DNA from: an uncultured bacterium
GTDB lineage: Bacteria; Bacillota_I; Bacilli_A; RFN20; CAG-826
Direction: 5' to 3'
DNA length: 61,911 nucleotides
Assembly: GCA_949299335.1 (NCBI GenBank)
Contig: CASGAD010000004.1
Location: forward strand, 1 to 61,911
This document shows positions 1 through 8,249 of the stretch, one piece after another; the stretch's first letter is position 1; each line of letters begins with the position of its first letter. Made by a program: the position numbers and the translations under genes. The notes beneath the pieces were generated by a model. That model did no database searches, was not told the DNA's origin, and worked only from the letters and a program-made list of their open reading frames with translations.

Positions 1-112
1 GATCCATATTTAATATTTCACCTATTTCTTTTGCGCTACTTCCTTTTGAAAGTAACCTAGATAAAGTTAACCTTTTTTGAAGATTAAACTGAATACCTTT
101 GTTTTTTCCCAT
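1..112 (-). CDS. IS30-like transposase, N-terminal fragment (cut by window edge)
   Basis: The minus strand reads an open frame from an ATG at 112 to the window edge. It starts MGKNKGIQFNLQKRLTLSRL and continues with a helix-turn-helix of the type LLSKGSSAKEIGEILNMD. This resembles the N-terminal HTH of IS30-family transposases (HTH_38 type), which binds the terminal repeats; the DDE catalytic core would lie outside the window. A strong ribosome binding site (AGGAGGTGC, complement of 122-130) precedes the ATG, so the gene start is intact. Only 37 residues are visible, so family placement is tentative; another HTH-containing transposase or regulator is possible. Confidence 0.6.
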   Translation of the reverse strand, partial: MGKNKGIQFNLQKRLTLSRLLSKGSSAKEIGEILNMD

Positions 113-170
113 ATAATATAAGCACCTCCTTTTTTTGTTTTTGGGTACTTATATAATACAAAAAGGAGGT

Positions 171-302: not shown

Positions 303-872
303 ATGAAAGGGCTTTTGATTGTTTTAAGCGGACCAAGTGGCGTTGGCAAGGGAACTATTCGCAAAGTTTTAATGAAAGATGACTCATTAAAACTATCTTA
401 TAGTGTGTCTATGACAACAAGATTGCCTAGAGCTGGAGAAGTTGACGGAGAAGATTATTTTTTCGTTACTAAAGATGAGTTTATAAAACATATTAATAAT
501 AACGACTTATTAGAATATGCTTCTTTTGTCGATAATTATTATGGTACTCCAAAAGATTATGTAGAAAAGTTACGTAATGAAGGTAGAAATGTTCTTCTAG
601 AAATAGAAACAACTGGTGCTAGACAAGTGATGGAACAAGTAAAAAATGATGATAAGGTCGTTTCAATTTTCTTATTGCCACCAACCTTTTCTGATCTTGA
701 AGCCAGAATTCGTGGAAGGAAAAGCGAACCTGAAAATATAATTCAAGAGCGTCTTCAAAAAGCGAAGATGGAATTAGGTTTAAAAGATCTATATAAATAT
801 AATGTTGTAAACAAAACTCCTGAACAAGCTGCAGAAGAAATTGCTGAAATCATCAAAGCCGCATCAAAATAG
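303..872 (+). CDS. gmk: Guanylate kinase
   Basis: Cytosolic enzyme that phosphorylates GMP to GDP with ATP. The 189-residue length is typical. The P-loop GPSGVGKGT is at residues 10-18, followed by the GMP-binding segment SMTTRLPRAGEVDGEDYFF and the lid-region RIRGR. No Shine-Dalgarno sequence is visible before ATG 303, and the promoter -10 box lies 9 nt upstream, so the mRNA is probably leaderless. The priA start codon follows the TAG stop directly. gmk beside priA matches the Bacilli order, although rpoZ and coaBC, usually between them, are absent. Confidence 0.96.
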   Translation: MKGLLIVLSGPSGVGKGTIRKVLMKDDSLKLSYSVSMTTRLPRAGEVDGEDYFFVTKDEFIKHINNNDLLEYASFVDNYYGTPKDYVEKLRNEGRNVLLEIETTGARQVMEQVKNDDKVVSIFLLPPTFSDLEARIRGRKSEPENIIQERLQKAKMELGLKDLYKYNVVNKTPEQAAEEIAEIIKAASK

Positions 873-3062
873 ATGTATTTACTAAAAATTTTAGTTCAAC
901 ATAAAGAGTACGCTTTAAATAGAGAATTTATTTATTGCTCAAAAGAAAAAGTAATAATTGGAACGAGAGTTTCCATAAGTTTTAATAAGCAAAGAATTAT
1001 TGGCTTTGTTACTGAATGCACATATTATAATTGTTCGATTGAAGAATTAACAAAAGAGTTTGGCTTCCAAATTAAAGATGTTGATGAAATTATTGATAAA
1101 GAGCCAATAATTAATGAAGAATTATTTTCACTTGCCCAAAAGCTTGCTTCTTATTATTTATATCCATTAATTGGAGTCCTACAAACAATGCTTCCTTCGT
1201 CTTTAAAACCAAGGGATAGTTTATATAATGCCCCTAAAATAAAATACGAATCATTCTATGAACTTTCAGAAGAAAGAACATTTGGTAATTTAAGCAAGCT
1301 TGAACAAAAAATATTAAAAAAATTCGATGGTAGGCTCACATTAAAGACAAATGAAATTGGAAAAAGCAAGTCTCTTCAAAGTTTAATTGATAAAGGAATC
1401 ATTAAATTAATAACAAGGGAAGCAAATAGATATGTACCTTCTATAACCTTTGAATATGAAAAAAATATAACTTTAACTAGCGAACAAAAGTTAGCCTACG
1501 ATACAATTTTAAACTCAGAGCAAAAAGTATTCTTATTAAAAGGTGTAACTGGAAGTGGTAAAACAGAGGTTTATCTTAAACTAGTCGAACATTATCTTAA
1601 AAATAACAAAGGCGTAATAATTTTAGTTCCAGAAATCGCGTTAACTCCTTTAATGATTTCTAGAGTTTTAAGTTACTTTGAAAATGAAGTTGCGGTGTTA
1701 CATTCTTCCTTGACCCCAGCACAAAAATATGATGAATATCGTAAAATTTCTAAAGGAAATGCAAAAATAGTTATTGGAACTAGAAGTGCAATTTTCGCTC
1801 CAGTTCATAATTTAGGCTTAATCATTATCGATGAAGAAAATGATGAATGCTATAAACAAGATGAACAAGGTTTACTTTATAATGCAAAAGAAGTAGCAAT
1901 TTTAAGAGGAGATAATAAAGATATTAAAATTGTTTTAGGAAGTGCAACTCCATCAATTGAAATGATGGCTAAAGCAAAAAATAATCAAATTGGTTTAGTT
2001 GGATTAACACATCGATATAAAGAAATAAAACTTCCTAAAGTGACCGTTGTTAATAGATTAGATCATAATTTGTTTAGTTATCATACATCCATTTTTTCGT
2101 TGCCTTTAATAATGAAATTGAAAGAAGTGATTAAAGCTAATGAACAAGCAATTTTACTTATTAATTCTAGAGGATATTCGAACAACTTAGTTTGCAGAGA
2201 ATGCGGCCATGTTTTTAAATGCCCAACTTGTGGATTGCCTCTCCACTATCATAAAGAAGGGAATGTTTTATATTGTCATCACTGTGATTATAAGATTAAA
2301 AAGCCAACAATTTGTCCTTCGTGTGGAAGTAAATATTTTAAATATGGTAACTTTGGTATTGAAAAAGTCGAAGAAGACTTTAAAAAAATCTTTAATGTTC
2401 CTTACTTAGTTTTAGATAGCGATAGAACAAACAAAACATATCAAATAGAGAAAGTTTTGCGTGATTTTAACGAAGGAAAGGCTAATATTTTAATCGGAAC
2501 GCAACTAGTTTCAAAAGGTCATGATTTTAAAAATGTTTCATTTGTTGGAATTTTAAATGCTGATACTTTATTAAATTATCCTAATTATAGAAGTAAAGAA
2601 ATTACTTTCAATTTAATTAGCCAAACGATAGGAAGAGCTGGGAGAGCGACTAAACAAGGCAATGCAATAATACAAACCTCATATCCAAACGATTATGCAA
2701 TAGTCTATGCTTCAAATCATGATTATGAATCTTTTTATGATGAAGAAATTAAGTATCGTAAGGCCATGCTTAATCCGCCATTTATTGGAATATGTTCTTT
2801 AGAACTATTATCTAAAACACAAGAGTTGGTATATTCAAAAGCTAAAGAAATTAAACAATATTTGGAATCTTTAGGATTAGAGAAAGTAAAAATACTTGGT
2901 CCAAATTTAGTTAGAAAAAAAGGAAATATTTTTTATACACAAATTTTTATTAAGTATAAAAAATTATCTTCAATCAAAGATTCAATCTCAGATTTAATTA
3001 ATGTTTACGGGATACAATCGCAATATAAATTGATTATTAACTTCAATCCTTATAGTTTTTAA
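873..3062 (+). CDS. priA: Primosomal protein N', replication restart helicase
   Basis: Superfamily 2 DNA helicase that recognises stalled forks and reloads the replicative helicase. The 729-residue protein has an N-terminal 3'-DNA-binding region, Walker A GVTGSGKT at residues 224-231, and a zinc-binding insert with four CxxC pairs from CRECGHVFKCPTCG to CPSCG. A conserved helicase C-half contains GTQLVSKGHDF and QTIGRAGRA. The Walker B/DEAH box, usually DEEH in PriA, reads DEEN here (Asn 323), an unusual substitution at the residue coupling ATP hydrolysis to DNA. It starts immediately after the gmk stop and is probably translationally coupled to it. Confidence 0.95.
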   Translation: MYLLKILVQHKEYALNREFIYCSKEKVIIGTRVSISFNKQRIIGFVTECTYYNCSIEELTKEFGFQIKDVDEIIDKEPIINEELFSLAQKLASYYLYPLIGVLQTMLPSSLKPRDSLYNAPKIKYESFYELSEERTFGNLSKLEQKILKKFDGRLTLKTNEIGKSKSLQSLIDKGIIKLITREANRYVPSITFEYEKNITLTSEQKLAYDTILNSEQKVFLLKGVTGSGKTEVYLKLVEHYLKNNKGVIILVPEIALTPLMISRVLSYFENEVAVLHSSLTPAQKYDEYRKISKGNAKIVIGTRSAIFAPVHNLGLIIIDEENDECYKQDEQGLLYNAKEVAILRGDNKDIKIVLGSATPSIEMMAKAKNNQIGLVGLTHRYKEIKLPKVTVVNRLDHNLFSYHTSIFSLPLIMKLKEVIKANEQAILLINSRGYSNNLVCRECGHVFKCPTCGLPLHYHKEGNVLYCHHCDYKIKKPTICPSCGSKYFKYGNFGIEKVEEDFKKIFNVPYLVLDSDRTNKTYQIEKVLRDFNEGKANILIGTQLVSKGHDFKNVSFVGILNADTLLNYPNYRSKEITFNLISQTIGRAGRATKQGNAIIQTSYPNDYAIVYASNHDYESFYDEEIKYRKAMLNPPFIGICSLELLSKTQELVYSKAKEIKQYLESLGLEKVKILGPNLVRKKGNIFYTQIFIKYKKLSSIKDSISDLINVYGIQSQYKLIINFNPYSF

Positions 3063-3170
3063 CTTATTAAGTTTATGTAAAAATAATGAAAATTTACAAG
3101 GTTTACCTTAATAAAAATTGAATTTAATACTCTAATAATCTATGATTATTAATAACGAGGTAACTGTTGG

Positions 3171-3632
3171 ATGATTACTATTTCTGTTATTGGTGTTGAC
3201 CCATATTTAGTTAGACAAATTTCAAAAGCAATGACCGGGAAAATTGCTGCTTTATATGAGGTCGAAAAAGATGAAATTAATTTTTATGCCCCTGAATGCT
3301 TATACATTCATGATGGTGTAGAACAAAACACTTGGAATGTTTTAGTTAAAGTAAATGCTCCTTTGAAAGTTAGAGTTTTAGAAAAGGATGCTGTTAAAGT
3401 TATAAGAGAATATTTAAAAGACGCATGCATAAATTTAGCAATCGAGTTTTATTATTATTCACAAGATAATCGCTATGAATTCGTTGATGACACTCAACCT
3501 AGATTTATGACTGAAGAAAATTCTTATGATATTGTCGAAGATGAATCAATTGAAAACGAAGAGGAAGGTGAAGAACCTTATTTAGGTGATATTTTCGAGG
3601 ATTTCAATAAAAAGATGAATGGAGAAGAATAA
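3171..3632 (+). CDS. Small acidic-tailed protein of unknown function
   Basis: I do not recognise a named family with confidence. The 153-residue protein has a beta-alpha-beta N-terminal half (residues 1 to about 100) that loosely recalls the tautomerase/MIF fold, but the catalytic Pro right after Met is absent. The tail from about residue 105 is very acidic (ENEEEGEEP). A GAGGT sequence about 11 nt upstream of ATG 3171 can serve as ribosome binding site. It overlaps nothing and lies just upstream of the degenerate rsmB-like gene, where def and fmt stand in other Bacilli, so it may be cotranscribed with it. Confidence 0.6.
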   Translation: MITISVIGVDPYLVRQISKAMTGKIAALYEVEKDEINFYAPECLYIHDGVEQNTWNVLVKVNAPLKVRVLEKDAVKVIREYLKDACINLAIEFYYYSQDNRYEFVDDTQPRFMTEENSYDIVEDESIENEEEGEEPYLGDIFEDFNKKMNGEE

Positions 3633-3633
3633 T

Positions 3634-4911
3634 ATGTCCAGTATTTATGAATCTAGTTTTAAAGTTTTAAAAAGTATTTTAAAAGAGAATGAATTTTTCA
3701 CTGTTTCTTTAAAGAAAAATTCTAGTTCAATTAAAAAAGAGGAAATTGTTTCAGTTTCTTCGCTTTGTGGTCTCTTTTTAAGAAATTACTATTTCATTAG
3801 AGTATTAGCTTACAATGTTTTTAATACTCAAGATGTTGAACCAATGATTTATATTGGTTTAGCCTATGTTAATAACAGTTATAAAAAAATAGTTGATACG
3901 AACGAAACTGTTAAATTTTTAGTAAGCAAACTTGCTCTTTATGAAATTAAAGTCACTGATGAAGTGAAAGAATCTTTTAATAAAGTAGTTGTAGCTAAAA
4001 AAGATTATTTAAAAGATGTTTTCTCGAACAAATTAAATAAAGGCGATTCAGCAAAAACCGGTTTTAAATATTTATCAGCGAGAAATAATTTACCTGAATG
4101 GGTAGTAAAAACATTAGTCAAACAATATGGTAGAGATCTTTCGATTAAAACCATTAACGCTATGACAAAAATGCCTAAACAATATGGTTATATCAATGGC
4201 TTATTAGTACATGAAGTTAATGATGAATTAAAAAAAGATTTTAAAATTATCGATGGAAATTTCTTAGAATATACATTAACTTCAAGTATTAGAAAAAACG
4301 GTTATGTTAGAAATGGTGATATCTTACCTTTACAAGTTGCAGAATATGAATTTTTAAAATCTTTACCAACAGTAAATAATGGCCATATAGCATATTATTT
4401 TGAAGAAAAAGAGGCTTTATATGCCATGATTTCTGACAAATATCTAGCTAATAATAAAGTTTCTTTATTAAGCCCAAATCAAAAAAACAACTCAGAATTG
4501 TTTGTTAAAATTAATCCAAATAAGCCAGAAAATTTAGCTATTTATAATAGCGATGAAAGTGGGATAATTTCTCATTTAAGTGAAAAACAAGATTTAGTAG
4601 TTTTTATGCCTAAATCAAGCAATTTAGAATTATTAAGAAGAACTCCAGAATATGGGATTTTATTTGACACAAATAATTTAGATGCAATTATTCAAGGTGA
4701 ATTAGATGGTTTATGTGATATCACTCAATATGTGAAAGATGGAGGATATCTAGCATATGCTGTCCCAACATTTAACATTAAAGAAACAATTATTTTAGTT
4801 AAGAATTTCTTGGCTAAAAATCCCCAATATACATTAGAAAAAGAAAAGATATATTTCCCATTTGAAAAGGAAAATAGTGTATTTTATTTTGCAGTATTTA
4901 AAAGAAAGTAA
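3634..4911 (+). CDS. Degenerate RsmB-like 16S rRNA m5C methyltransferase homologue
   Basis: Position between priA and rlmN is where rsmB (16S rRNA C967 methyltransferase) sits in Bacilli. The 425-residue protein keeps family hallmarks: a substrate-binding stretch RNNLPEWVVKTLVKQYG, a segment LRRTPEYGILFDTNNLDAI aligning with the RsmB rrxPE...dl region, and a C-terminal GGYLAYAVPTFNIKET. The SAM-binding PGGKT loop and the DxPCSG motif cannot be found. The catalytic YSTCT motif reads YAVPT (Pro 378 in place of the nucleophilic Cys). The frame is intact, so it is probably kept for RNA or ribosome binding, not catalysis. Start chosen at ATG 3634, with GGAG at 3621-3624; an upstream ATG at 3619 overlaps the previous gene. 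Confidence 0.75.
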   Translation: MSSIYESSFKVLKSILKENEFFTVSLKKNSSSIKKEEIVSVSSLCGLFLRNYYFIRVLAYNVFNTQDVEPMIYIGLAYVNNSYKKIVDTNETVKFLVSKLALYEIKVTDEVKESFNKVVVAKKDYLKDVFSNKLNKGDSAKTGFKYLSARNNLPEWVVKTLVKQYGRDLSIKTINAMTKMPKQYGYINGLLVHEVNDELKKDFKIIDGNFLEYTLTSSIRKNGYVRNGDILPLQVAEYEFLKSLPTVNNGHIAYYFEEKEALYAMISDKYLANNKVSLLSPNQKNNSELFVKINPNKPENLAIYNSDESGIISHLSEKQDLVVFMPKSSNLELLRRTPEYGILFDTNNLDAIIQGELDGLCDITQYVKDGGYLAYAVPTFNIKETIILVKNFLAKNPQYTLEKEKIYFPFEKENSVFYFAVFKRK

Positions 4912-4918
4912 TTGTTAA

Positions 4919-5965
4919 ATGATAAGTTTATATAATTATACGTTAGAAAAACTAGAAGAACATCTTGTTGCTAGAGGAGAAAAGAAATATAGAGCAACTC
5001 AACTTTTTAAATGGATTTATGAAAAAAGAGTAACTTCATTTGATGAAATGAGCGATGTTTCTAAAAAGTTTCGTGAAGTCTTAAATACTGAATATGAAAT
5101 AAAAAAGCCTAGTATCTATTTAAAACAAGTTTCTAAAGATGGAACAATTAAACTTCTTTTAGAATTAGAAGATGGAAATAAAATCGAAACAGTTTTGATG
5201 CGTTATAATTATGGAAATGTGGCGTGTGTTACTAGTCAGGTTGGCTGCAATATGGGATGTTCATTTTGCGCAAGTGGACTACTTAAAAAGAAAAGAAATC
5301 TTGAAGTTAAAGAACTTATCGGACAAATATTAGTTTTAGATGAATTATTAAAGGAAGAAGGAAATAACGAGAGAGTTTCTCATGTTGTTATAATGGGGAC
5401 AGGTGAACCATTTGATAATTATGATAATGTTCTTGATTTTATTAGAATATTAAATCATCCTTATGGCTTAGCTATAGGAGCTCGTCATATTACAGTTTCA
5501 ACTTGTGGAATTGTTCCAAAAATTTATGATTATGCGAAAGAAGGATTACAAATTAACCTTGCAATCTCATTACATGCACCTAATAATGAAATTAGAAATC
5601 GCATAATGCAAATAAATCATGCATATCCTATTGAAAAGGTTATGGAAGCAGTGAAATATTATGAAAAAACTGCTGGAAGAAGAGTCACCTTTGAGTATAT
5701 TTTGCTTAAAGGTATAAATGATTCTAAAGAAAATGCTATTGAATTAGCTAAATTAATTAAGGGAACTTTAGCATATGTTAATTTAATACCTTATAATGAA
5801 GTTAATGAGATGCGTTATCTTAGAAGTGATGAAAAAAGTGTCCACCAATTCTTGGACACATTAATGAAAAATGGAGTTACGGCTACAATTAGAAAAGAAT
5901 TCGGCACTGACATTGATGCTGCTTGTGGCCAATTAAGGGCAAAAAATGAGCAAAAAGAAATTTAA
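4919..5965 (+). CDS. rlmN: Dual-specificity 23S rRNA A2503 / tRNA A37 C2-methyltransferase
   Basis: Radical-SAM enzyme that methylates C2 of A2503 in 23S rRNA and A37 in some tRNAs. At 348 residues it is of normal length. The 4Fe-4S-binding CxxxCxxC is at Cys110, Cys114 and Cys117. Both mechanistic cysteines are in place: Cys103, seven residues before the cluster, and Cys336 in AACGQLR. GTGEPFDNYDNV and the HAPNNEIRNRIMQIN stretch are also family hallmarks. The end overlaps the start of the phosphatase gene by 20 nt, so the two are translationally coupled. Confidence 0.96.
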   Translation: MISLYNYTLEKLEEHLVARGEKKYRATQLFKWIYEKRVTSFDEMSDVSKKFREVLNTEYEIKKPSIYLKQVSKDGTIKLLLELEDGNKIETVLMRYNYGNVACVTSQVGCNMGCSFCASGLLKKKRNLEVKELIGQILVLDELLKEEGNNERVSHVVIMGTGEPFDNYDNVLDFIRILNHPYGLAIGARHITVSTCGIVPKIYDYAKEGLQINLAISLHAPNNEIRNRIMQINHAYPIEKVMEAVKYYEKTAGRRVTFEYILLKGINDSKENAIELAKLIKGTLAYVNLIPYNEVNEMRYLRSDEKSVHQFLDTLMKNGVTATIRKEFGTDIDAACGQLRAKNEQKEI

Positions 5966-6701
5966 TGGTAGCTTTAGTTTTAAAAAAGACATTGGAAAAG
6001 TAAGAGTTACTAATGAAGACGAAACAAGAGTTTTAATTAATAGCGCTGGCAATGTTCTTTTGATGGTGGCCGATGGAATGGGCGGTCATAATAAAGGTGA
6101 TTATGCATCCAAAGAAACAATCGAGATTGTTTCACAAACTTTTAAAGATAAAAAAGGTTTTATCTCTTTATTTGATGCTGTTAGCCGGTTAAAAAGAATT
6201 GCAAAATTAGCTAATAGTAGAATATATAGAATTCAAGATGAAGATTTAATGTATAAAGGTATGGGTACAACTTTATCTTTAGTACTTATTTATAAAAATA
6301 AATTGATTTCTTTAAATTGTGGTGATAGTAGAACATATTGGGTCAAAAACGGAGAATTAGTTCAAATTAGTGAAGATCAAACCTATGTTAATTTCCTTTT
6401 AAAGAGTGGTCAAATAACTAAAGAAGAAGCTCTTGTACATCCTGAAAGACATGTTTTAACAAATGCTATTGGTTTATTCCCTTCGATTAGTATCGATATT
6501 AAGGTTTTAAAATATAATGGTGAGACCGTACTTTTATGTAGCGATGGACTTTATAATAATGTTAGTGAAAAAGATATTTTAAATATTTTAAATACAAAAC
6601 TTAATACTGAAGAAAAAGTCGAATCACTTATTAACTTAGGCAATTTCAATGGGGGCAGCGACAATATGTCAATAGCACTATGGGAGTCCCTAGATGATTA
6701 G
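5946..6701 (+). CDS. stp: PP2C-type Ser/Thr protein phosphatase
   Basis: PPM/PP2C phosphatase that reverses phosphorylation by the neighbouring kinase. Its 251 residues show the metal-binding motifs in order: GKVRVTNEDE near the N-terminus, ADGMGGHNKGDYAS, GMGTTLSLV, NCGDSRTYW, LCSDGLYN, and a final GGSDNMSIAL. Start ATG 5946 lies inside the end of rlmN, and the end overlaps the kinase start by 8 nt. The rlmN-stp-kinase-rpe order matches the Bacilli rlmN-prpC-prkC-rsgA-rpe cluster, with rsgA missing. Confidence 0.93.
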   Translation: MSKKKFNGSFSFKKDIGKVRVTNEDETRVLINSAGNVLLMVADGMGGHNKGDYASKETIEIVSQTFKDKKGFISLFDAVSRLKRIAKLANSRIYRIQDEDLMYKGMGTTLSLVLIYKNKLISLNCGDSRTYWVKNGELVQISEDQTYVNFLLKSGQITKEEALVHPERHVLTNAIGLFPSISIDIKVLKYNGETVLLCSDGLYNNVSEKDILNILNTKLNTEEKVESLINLGNFNGGSDNMSIALWESLDD

Positions 6702-7581
6702 AGTTAATGATTTAGTTGGAGATAGATATAAAATTGTTAGTGAACTAGGTCATGGCGGAATGAGTGATGTTTTCGAGGCTAGGGACATCATTTTCAAACG
6801 AACGGTTGCAATTAAAATTATTAAATTTGAATATTCAAATAAGATTGAAAATCTAATTAGATTCCAAAATGAGGCTAGATTTTCGGCAGCTTTTAATCAT
6901 CCTAATATCGTTAAAATTTATGATTATGGTGAATATAATAATTTACCTTATATAGTTAATGAGTTTATGAAATCTCAAACTTTAAGGGATGTATTAGATT
7001 ATAAGAAAAATCTAGGGGTTAATGAGACTTGTCAAATCATGCTTCAACTTTGCGATGCAGTAAGTGAAGTACATTCTAAAAACATTATTCATAGAGATAT
7101 AAAACCTCAAAATATTTATTATTTAAGTGATGGGACAGTAAAATTAAGTGATTTTGGAATTAGCGTTTTATTAAATTCACCATTAAACGTTAATGAAAAT
7201 AAAAAAGTAATGGGGACTGTTCAATATTTAGCTCCAGAACTTGTTTATGGTAAAAAATGTTCATTCCAAAGTGATATTTATGCAATGGGTATCACTATGT
7301 TTGAACTATTAACTGGACAAGTTCCTTTCGATGCATCAAAAGTTAGCGACATTGCTTATATGCAAGTGAATGATGAAATGCCTAGCGTGTTAACCATTAT
7401 TCCTACTTTGCCTAAAGAGATAGATAAAATCATTTTTAAAGCAACTGCTAAAGATGTCAAAGAGCGTTATAAAACTGTTGGTGATTTGAGAAAAGATATA
7501 TTATCTTTATATAAGAATAAGAAAATAACTAAAAAGAAAAGTAATTTTTTTGCAAAACTTTTTGGACTGGCGAGGAACTAG
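6694..7581 (+). CDS. Ser/Thr protein kinase without PASTA domains (PrkC position)
   Basis: Hanks-type kinase of 295 residues. The Gly-rich loop LGHGGMSDVF is at residues 18-27, the ATP-anchoring Lys41 in AIKII, the catalytic loop HRDIKPQN at 133-140, then DFGI and the APE-like APELVYG. The domain ends in a basic tail. PrkC and PknB proteins at this locus normally continue through a transmembrane helix into several extracellular PASTA domains that sense peptidoglycan. Nothing of that is present: the gene stops after the kinase domain and 9 nt later rpe begins. The kinase is therefore probably cytosolic and unable to sense muropeptides directly. Confidence 0.92.
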   Translation: MIRVNDLVGDRYKIVSELGHGGMSDVFEARDIIFKRTVAIKIIKFEYSNKIENLIRFQNEARFSAAFNHPNIVKIYDYGEYNNLPYIVNEFMKSQTLRDVLDYKKNLGVNETCQIMLQLCDAVSEVHSKNIIHRDIKPQNIYYLSDGTVKLSDFGISVLLNSPLNVNENKKVMGTVQYLAPELVYGKKCSFQSDIYAMGITMFELLTGQVPFDASKVSDIAYMQVNDEMPSVLTIIPTLPKEIDKIIFKATAKDVKERYKTVGDLRKDILSLYKNKKITKKKSNFFAKLFGLARN

Positions 7582-7589
7582 AAAATTTT

Positions 7590-8249
7590 ATGAAAAAAGT
7601 AGAAGTATCACCATCAATATTAAGTGCTAATTTTTTAAATTTAGAAAAAGACATTAAAGATGTTTATTTTGGTGGTGCTAAATATCTCCATTTCGATGTC
7701 ATGGATGGACATTTTGTTCCAAACATTTCTTTTGGCAGTATAATTTTAAAACAGATTTCCAAAGAACATTTATTAATTAATGATGTGCATTTAATGATTA
7801 GTGATCCAAACAAATATTTAGATGATTTTATTAAAAGCGGTGCTGACATCATTACTTTTCATTATGAAGCTTTTAATAACGATGAAGAAATTTTTGCTTT
7901 AATTAGAAGAATTAAAGAAAATAATGTTAAAGCTGGTCTATCAATTAAACCTGCTACGCCTATAGAAAATATAGCCAAATTTCTTAAAGAATTAGACTTA
8001 GTTTTGGTAATGAGTGTAGAACCTGGATTTGGTGGGCAAAAATTTATGTTTAATTCAGTAGAAAAAATTAAAAAGTTAGATACAATTAAAAAAGAAGGGA
8101 ACTATCATTATTTAATTGAAGTGGATGGCGGCATAAATAATGAGACTTCCAAACTTTGTATTGAAGCGGGAGTAGATATCTTAGTTGCAGGAAGTTATAT
8201 TTACAATAAAGAAAATAAAAAAGAAGCCATAGAAAGTTTAATTAGGTGA
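7590..8249 (+). CDS. rpe: Ribulose-phosphate 3-epimerase
   Basis: Interconverts ribulose-5-phosphate and xylulose-5-phosphate in the pentose phosphate pathway. The 219-residue TIM barrel has the expected motifs SPSILSANF, HFDVMDGHFVPN with the catalytic Asp and metal-binding His, DVHLMI, MSVEPGFGGQKF and EVDGGIN. It ends with TGA, which shows that TGA is a stop in this genome. It follows the kinase gene by 8 nt, in the same place as in Bacillus where rsgA separates the two. Confidence 0.96.
   Translation: MKKVEVSPSILSANFLNLEKDIKDVYFGGAKYLHFDVMDGHFVPNISFGSIILKQISKEHLLINDVHLMISDPNKYLDDFIKSGADIITFHYEAFNNDEEIFALIRRIKENNVKAGLSIKPATPIENIAKFLKELDLVLVMSVEPGFGGQKFMFNSVEKIKKLDTIKKEGNYHYLIEVDGGINNETSKLCIEAGVDILVAGSYIYNKENKKEAIESLIR

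Follow-up and report, generated by a model that had tools for sequence, protein, structure and literature searches.

Why would a bacterium keep, as an intact gene in the place of rsmB, a protein that has lost the residues with which RsmB methylates 16S rRNA? The question is raised by an uncultured member of the Bacilli, of which we analysed one stretch of 61,911 nucleotides (the window), an entire contig of a 98%-complete assembly of 1.42 Mb in 37 contigs.

The RsmB-like gene and its lost active site

The frame of the gene is intact from its ATG to its stop, with an additional in-frame ATG upstream (Table 1). The gene order in the window is gmk, priA, X153, the rsmB-like gene, rlmN, a prpC-like phosphatase and a prkC-like kinase, the priA, rlmN, prpC and prkC neighbourhood of rsmB thus being present around the gene, as an earlier note on this DNA had claimed. 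The nearest named relative, a locus of an uncultured Bacilli metagenome assembly (L135), is 88% identical in the RsmB-like protein. Between L135 and window positions 303-8246, gmk and priA share 72-78% identity and the genes from X153 through rpe 84-94%, a step that looks as if the X153-rpe segment had been exchanged. The contig itself starts within an ORF on the minus strand (window 1-113) beginning MGKNKGIQFNLQKRLTLSRLL, which we take to resemble the start of an IS30-type transposase; this start inside an ORF is likely an assembly break.

Table 1. Genes of the rsmB-like locus and the former motif places within the rsmB-like gene (window coordinates)
Feature	Position	Strand	Remarks
priA	873..3062	+	neighbour, conserved synteny
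X153, small DUF1904-like protein with acidic tail	3171..3632	+	occurs in dead-RsmB families; linked to priA, not to the dead gene
rsmB-like pseudo-methyltransferase gene	3634..4911	+	425 aa; 430 aa from in-frame ATG at 3619
motif I place (SAM loop; D-CAAPG(S/T)K in active relatives)	4393..4422	+	YYFEEKEALY, residues 254-263; lost (alignments)
motif IV place (DAPCSG)	4606..4623	+	MPKSSN, residues 325-330; lost (alignments)
motif VI place (YSTCT, catalytic Cys)	4756..4770	+	YAVPT, residues 375-379; Cys lost
rlmN	4919..5965	+	neighbour, conserved synteny
prpC-type protein phosphatase	5946..6701	+	neighbour
prkC-type protein kinase	6694..7581	+	neighbour

The relationship to RsmB extends over the full length of the protein, N-terminal domain included. 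The window protein matched the NCBIfam model PRK14902 rsmB (NF011494) with E 1.9e-13 and Pfam PF01189 with E 2.6e-4, the latter under the gathering score. A profile built from 30 relatives matched E. coli Fmu/RsmB (1sqf) over profile positions 6-419 with E 1.6e-12 and a second solved Fmu protein (2yxl) with E 1e-18, and profile-profile comparison with eight active RsmBs of the same order gave a probability of 100 and E 5e-48 over 418 columns. Profile alignment, the check that the earlier note had proposed for its claim of a likeness to RsmB along the length, thus found the relationship. Since a structure model of the window protein with L135 (A3) reached a pLDDT of only 38, too poor for a fold search, retention of the fold rests on these sequence profiles.

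The motif readings in the alignments likewise bear out the absence of the PGGKT SAM loop, the PCSG motif and the catalytic Cys (YAVPT for YSTCT) described in the earlier note, the motif numbers and roles being those that we take from the RsmB/NSUN literature. None of the 121 aligned dead proteins (100 from f1, 15 from f3 and 6 from f5, families being coded f1 to f25 as in the genome collection) retains the Asp of motif I, II or IV, the Lys of motif I or the Cys of motif VI. The R-R-x-P-E/D segment downstream of the motif IV place is retained, as are the fold-core residues G371, Y375, T379 and E384 (window numbering), which are kept in 97-100 of the 100 f1 proteins, the last three in nearly all f1 and f3 dead proteins. 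A regular-expression search of 122 dead-family proteins, including L103, whose frame is cut by N and which was left out of the alignment set, found PC(S/T/L/A)G in none, PGxK in one, elsewhere in the chain, and TC(S/T) in two, out of register. Among 48 active controls (L113, active with a frame partly N, was placed in the tree and not among these), motif I was present in all and the PC motif in 47. Read from its sequence, the window protein is a catalytically dead pseudoenzyme derived from RsmB. Lacking SAM loop, PCSG and catalytic Cys, it cannot be expected to carry out m5C967 methylation.

A second active rsmB elsewhere in the genome, or an active-site-bearing region overlooked before, was also considered and rejected: only an RsmF-like protein on contig C1 (431 aa, with intact DMCSAPGGK, DAPCSG and YSTCS), the sole other RsmB/F-type protein, and RsmD, which is a third, weak PF01189 match on contig C26, were found. 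Intact RsmB/F-type methyltransferases of only about 300 aa, which lack the N-terminal domain, were seen at L114-L116, L118, L120 and L122; such short relatives occur in g6, from which the dead rsmB has been deleted, and in some of the f3 genomes. The m2G966/m5C967 pair is located at the initiator-tRNA site. Loss of formylation as the cause of the dead rsmB was rejected, as fmt is located elsewhere in 109/116 family genomes, the window genome included; def and fmt are not part of the window operon.

Spread, age and maintenance of the dead state

A homologue was found in 101 of the 116 genomes of the window's family (search at E 1e-4), with further homologues in G029 and G053 by profile and in G062 at a contig edge. 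Motifs were read in all of these 101 genomes but G007, G023 and G042, and the 101 loci of the 98 genomes read, three of which have two loci, were all in the dead state. Together with 15 f3 and 6 f5 proteins, the dead state was found in 122/122 rsmB-like proteins of three families (f1, f3, f5) of the order, so that the question in the earlier note of whether relatives share the loss can be answered with yes; the dead-profile search covered 41 of the 55 order-level non-f1 genomes. Full RsmB occurs in f2, f6, f7 and f8 of the same order, and in f4 RsmF-type matches alone were seen. The catalytic Cys is present in 40/40 RsmB loci fetched from other orders of the class, STC is present in 48/48 RsmBs of further families in the order and class, and L258 and L282, read individually, are active. 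An identical loss in 122/122 proteins against STC in 48/48 is therefore more than chance. As a separate observation, three g30 genomes (G107, G074 and G099) hold two dead-RsmB loci each (L082/L085, L092/L095 and L096/L104), and X153 was not found in the fetched stretch of the second copies L085, L092 and L096.

A maximum-likelihood tree of 60 proteins unites all 43 dead ones in a single clade (SH-aLRT 100, stem 0.91), with active RsmB next to it and RsmF outside; the dead proteins thereby group with RsmB rather than RsmF, and one change of state suffices. The tree was obtained by a quick search and contains some long branches, and the active rows are weakly supported as one group (35). SAM binding and the catalytic Cys were lost on the branch leading to a clade that comprises at least three families of a single Bacilli order, in which the dead rsmB has kept its fold signature, its operon place and its selective constraint.

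Compared with L135, the window gene gave a dN/dS of 0.059 (at dS 1.36, near saturation), next to 0.051 for rlmN, 0.107 for rpe, 0.113 for gmk and 0.156 for priA. Sixty dead pairs, which were more than 60% identical in a BLAST comparison and which share sequences and are not independent, gave 0.025-0.235 in the 51 that were unsaturated, nine having saturated dS, and 0.025-0.222 where dS was under 1; two active pairs gave 0.147 and 0.212. These values support purifying selection on the dead rsmB as read from its codons, with no sign of recent decay, and together with the loss common to relatives they uphold the earlier reading of a dead gene that is kept intact.

A decaying relic carried along with the operon could account for several independent deletions and for a fast long-term divergence, the window protein being 20-48% identical to other family members. 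In all four g6 genomes and in G039 of g9, priA, X153 and rlmN directly adjoin; in G090 rlmN comes directly after X153, the ORF upstream of X153 being labelled gmk there. The clean deletions indicate that the dead gene is dispensable. However, with dN/dS at 0.059 and 0.025-0.235, well below 1 in all unsaturated pairs, with no internal stop in any family-search match, and with retention in three families after a single ancient loss, the dead rsmB is not a decaying relic; this explanation is refuted on the tested pairs and we regard it as most improbable. An assembly artefact or a mis-binned contig may come to mind as the nearest named record is itself a metagenome assembly, but the identical gene, state and synteny recur in scores of separate genomes, which refutes this idea and leaves it practically no probability.

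A possible role on 16S helix 31

Selection on a dead RsmB in uncultured Bacilli suggests that the protein is useful without the chemistry. According to the available part of the source, E. coli RsmB and RsmD reduce a misfolded helix 30/31 class independently of SAM in vitro, an effect that was measured with the two proteins added together (PMC13004024). In the available text of a second study, the particle on which E. coli RsmB acts is an early 30S intermediate that S19 has yet to join, and deletion of rsmB leads to accumulation of the 17S precursor (PMC7056703). Whole-length homology to RsmB, taken with the E. coli RsmB/RsmD effect as far as the accessible part of that report describes it (PMC13004024), speaks for a role at the same place, of the kind (16S binding or ribosome assembly) that the earlier note had suggested, and we infer, at a probability that falls just short of even, that the gene encodes a pseudo-methyltransferase with a retained, SAM-independent, chaperone-like role on 16S helix 31. 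The pseudo-RsmB would act by binding alone, without methylation, and would cap the helix 31 loop in early, unfolded pre-30S rRNA; capping would limit misfolding of the rRNA, as E. coli RsmB together with RsmD is reported to do independently of SAM, and would leave no m5C967 behind. RsmD, which writes the adjacent m2G966, is still there as judged by gene presence (110/112 family genomes, the window genome included). Against the helix 31 role stand the clean deletions in g6, G039 and G090 and the fast divergence of the protein within the family.

The presumed target loop could be matched in 51 of the 196 order genomes (52 rows, counted by hand) with a pattern that required G966, positions 966-971 following what we take to be E. 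coli numbering; the window's own genome gave no match to this G966-requiring pattern. C967 is kept in 50/52 matched stretches and is changed to A in G027 and in G179, the latter of the window's genus. Both also have A in place of G971, which may be a paired change of the helix 31 loop, seen in two genera of the family. U stands at position 968 in 32/44 f1, 3/3 f3 and 2/2 f5 rows, that is, in 37/49 dead-family stretches, and A in both f2 rows and in the single f4 row. A strict coupling of the dead state to A968U was rejected, A968 being kept in 12/44 f1 stretches. With positions 967 and 968 changed in dead families and A968 kept in some, the loop has therefore drifted, and not in step with the gene. 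The frequent retention of C967 could also be taken to mean that the window protein still methylates RNA via an unusual active site, and in the same direction point a Cys in the motif IV Cys column of about 10/100 f1 proteins and a Cys located two residues past the motif VI position in L055 and L071. We nevertheless consider this very unlikely, since the Asp of motifs I, II and IV, the Lys of motif I and the Cys of motif VI are missing from every aligned dead protein, there is no Gly-rich SAM loop, and C967 itself is gone from the two dead-family genomes named above.

The gene directly upstream offers a different lead. X153 is an acidic-tailed protein of 153 aa that carries a conserved H-x-G-V-E-Q motif and is usually encoded just after priA, and its family is near Pfam DUF1904 (17/26 members at E below 0.1, best 9e-6). 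A PDB sequence search with X153 returned nothing, and its structure prediction (A5, pLDDT 52) was too poor for a fold search. Relatives with Cys/His-rich tails were seen at L028, L136 and L164, and in two genomes an ORF of 690-735 residues with a secretion-signal-like start lies between X153 and the dead rsmB (L295 3035-5239; L296 1106-3166). X153 is present in 136/141 f1, 17/18 f3 and 23/23 f5 genomes, in 0/10 genomes of the RsmB-active families of the order and, weakly, in 2/4 f4 genomes; in the class sample it occurs in 32/247 genomes, all f1 or f3. Its presence in 176/182 dead-family genomes, against 0/10 RsmB-active-family genomes and 0/215 genomes of other orders, and its position directly upstream in 25/30 f1 and 14/15 f3 loci, counted on loci with longer flanks (f1: 1.5 kb; the upstream flanks of L034 to L104 are mostly ~0.4 kb), would fit a pseudo-RsmB that no longer works on the ribosome and has become a protein scaffold or regulator, for instance with X153 or another product of the priA-rlmN-prpC-prkC region. 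On the other hand, X153 stays beside priA where deletion has removed the dead gene (g6, G039) or where the latter lies elsewhere (three f5 genomes), and G090, which lacks the dead gene, has X153 too; X153 is thus not tied to the dead gene and outlasts its deletion, and the shared distribution of the two may reflect shared ancestry alone. An obligate partnership or two-gene module was rejected on the same persistence in g6, G039 and G090.

The charge of the N-terminal domain cuts both ways. Over the N-terminal 140 residues the median net charge is -2 in 121 dead proteins vs +5 in 48 active ones (Mann-Whitney p 3e-14, uncorrected for relatedness), and this loss of basic charge from dead N-domains as a set argues against a general RNA-binding role and is in favour of a scaffold or regulator. 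In contrast, the N-domain of the window protein is still basic (+5), with values of +3 to +8 in 8/8 of the window's genus. For this reason the helix 31 role is given slightly less than an even chance and a role on protein partners is regarded as possible but rather doubtful. Building on the helix 31 role, we tentatively propose that a clade of several Bacilli families separated the two jobs of RsmB, with m5C967 dropped, the SAM-free helix 31 chaperone kept and the loop changed beside the target.

Relation to known systems

Ribosomal RNA methyltransferases are suspected of being kept for the quality control of assembly rather than for the methyl group, which is hard to show with wild enzymes because they serve both ends. 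A lineage in which a dead RsmB became fixed a single time and was afterwards maintained by selection in several families would amount to a separation-of-function experiment done by nature. For annotation the locus is a warning, as homology and synteny would label such genes rsmB and wrongly predict m5C967. With RsmB itself (Sun/Fmu; 1sqf, NF011494), the 16S m5C967 enzyme, the window-type proteins share full-length homology, an orthologous place in the tree and the operon neighbours; they differ in having no SAM loop, PCSG or catalytic Cys and, in most members, a less basic N-domain. RsmF (the YebU-type m5C1407 enzyme) is of the same superfamily and has an intact copy in the window genome, but falls outside the RsmB and dead clade in the tree. 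The Mollicutes, Bacilli-related reduced genomes in which m5C967 has been dropped, are similar in that loss, whereas in the available part of the source rsmB is either absent or present there and no dead, intact form is described (PMC4014445). Our search of the open-licence literature found no paper on a dead RsmB, and a dead RsmB that is fixed, selected and common to a whole clade was not met there, although non-catalytic roles of relatives are already known. Human NOP2/NSUN1, an m5C methyltransferase of the same superfamily, has a role in ribosome synthesis that needs no catalysis, according to the accessible part of the report (PMC9561284). As described in that same part, however, NOP2 has retained an intact active site and continues to methylate 28S rRNA (PMC9561284), whereas the window protein has lost its active site.
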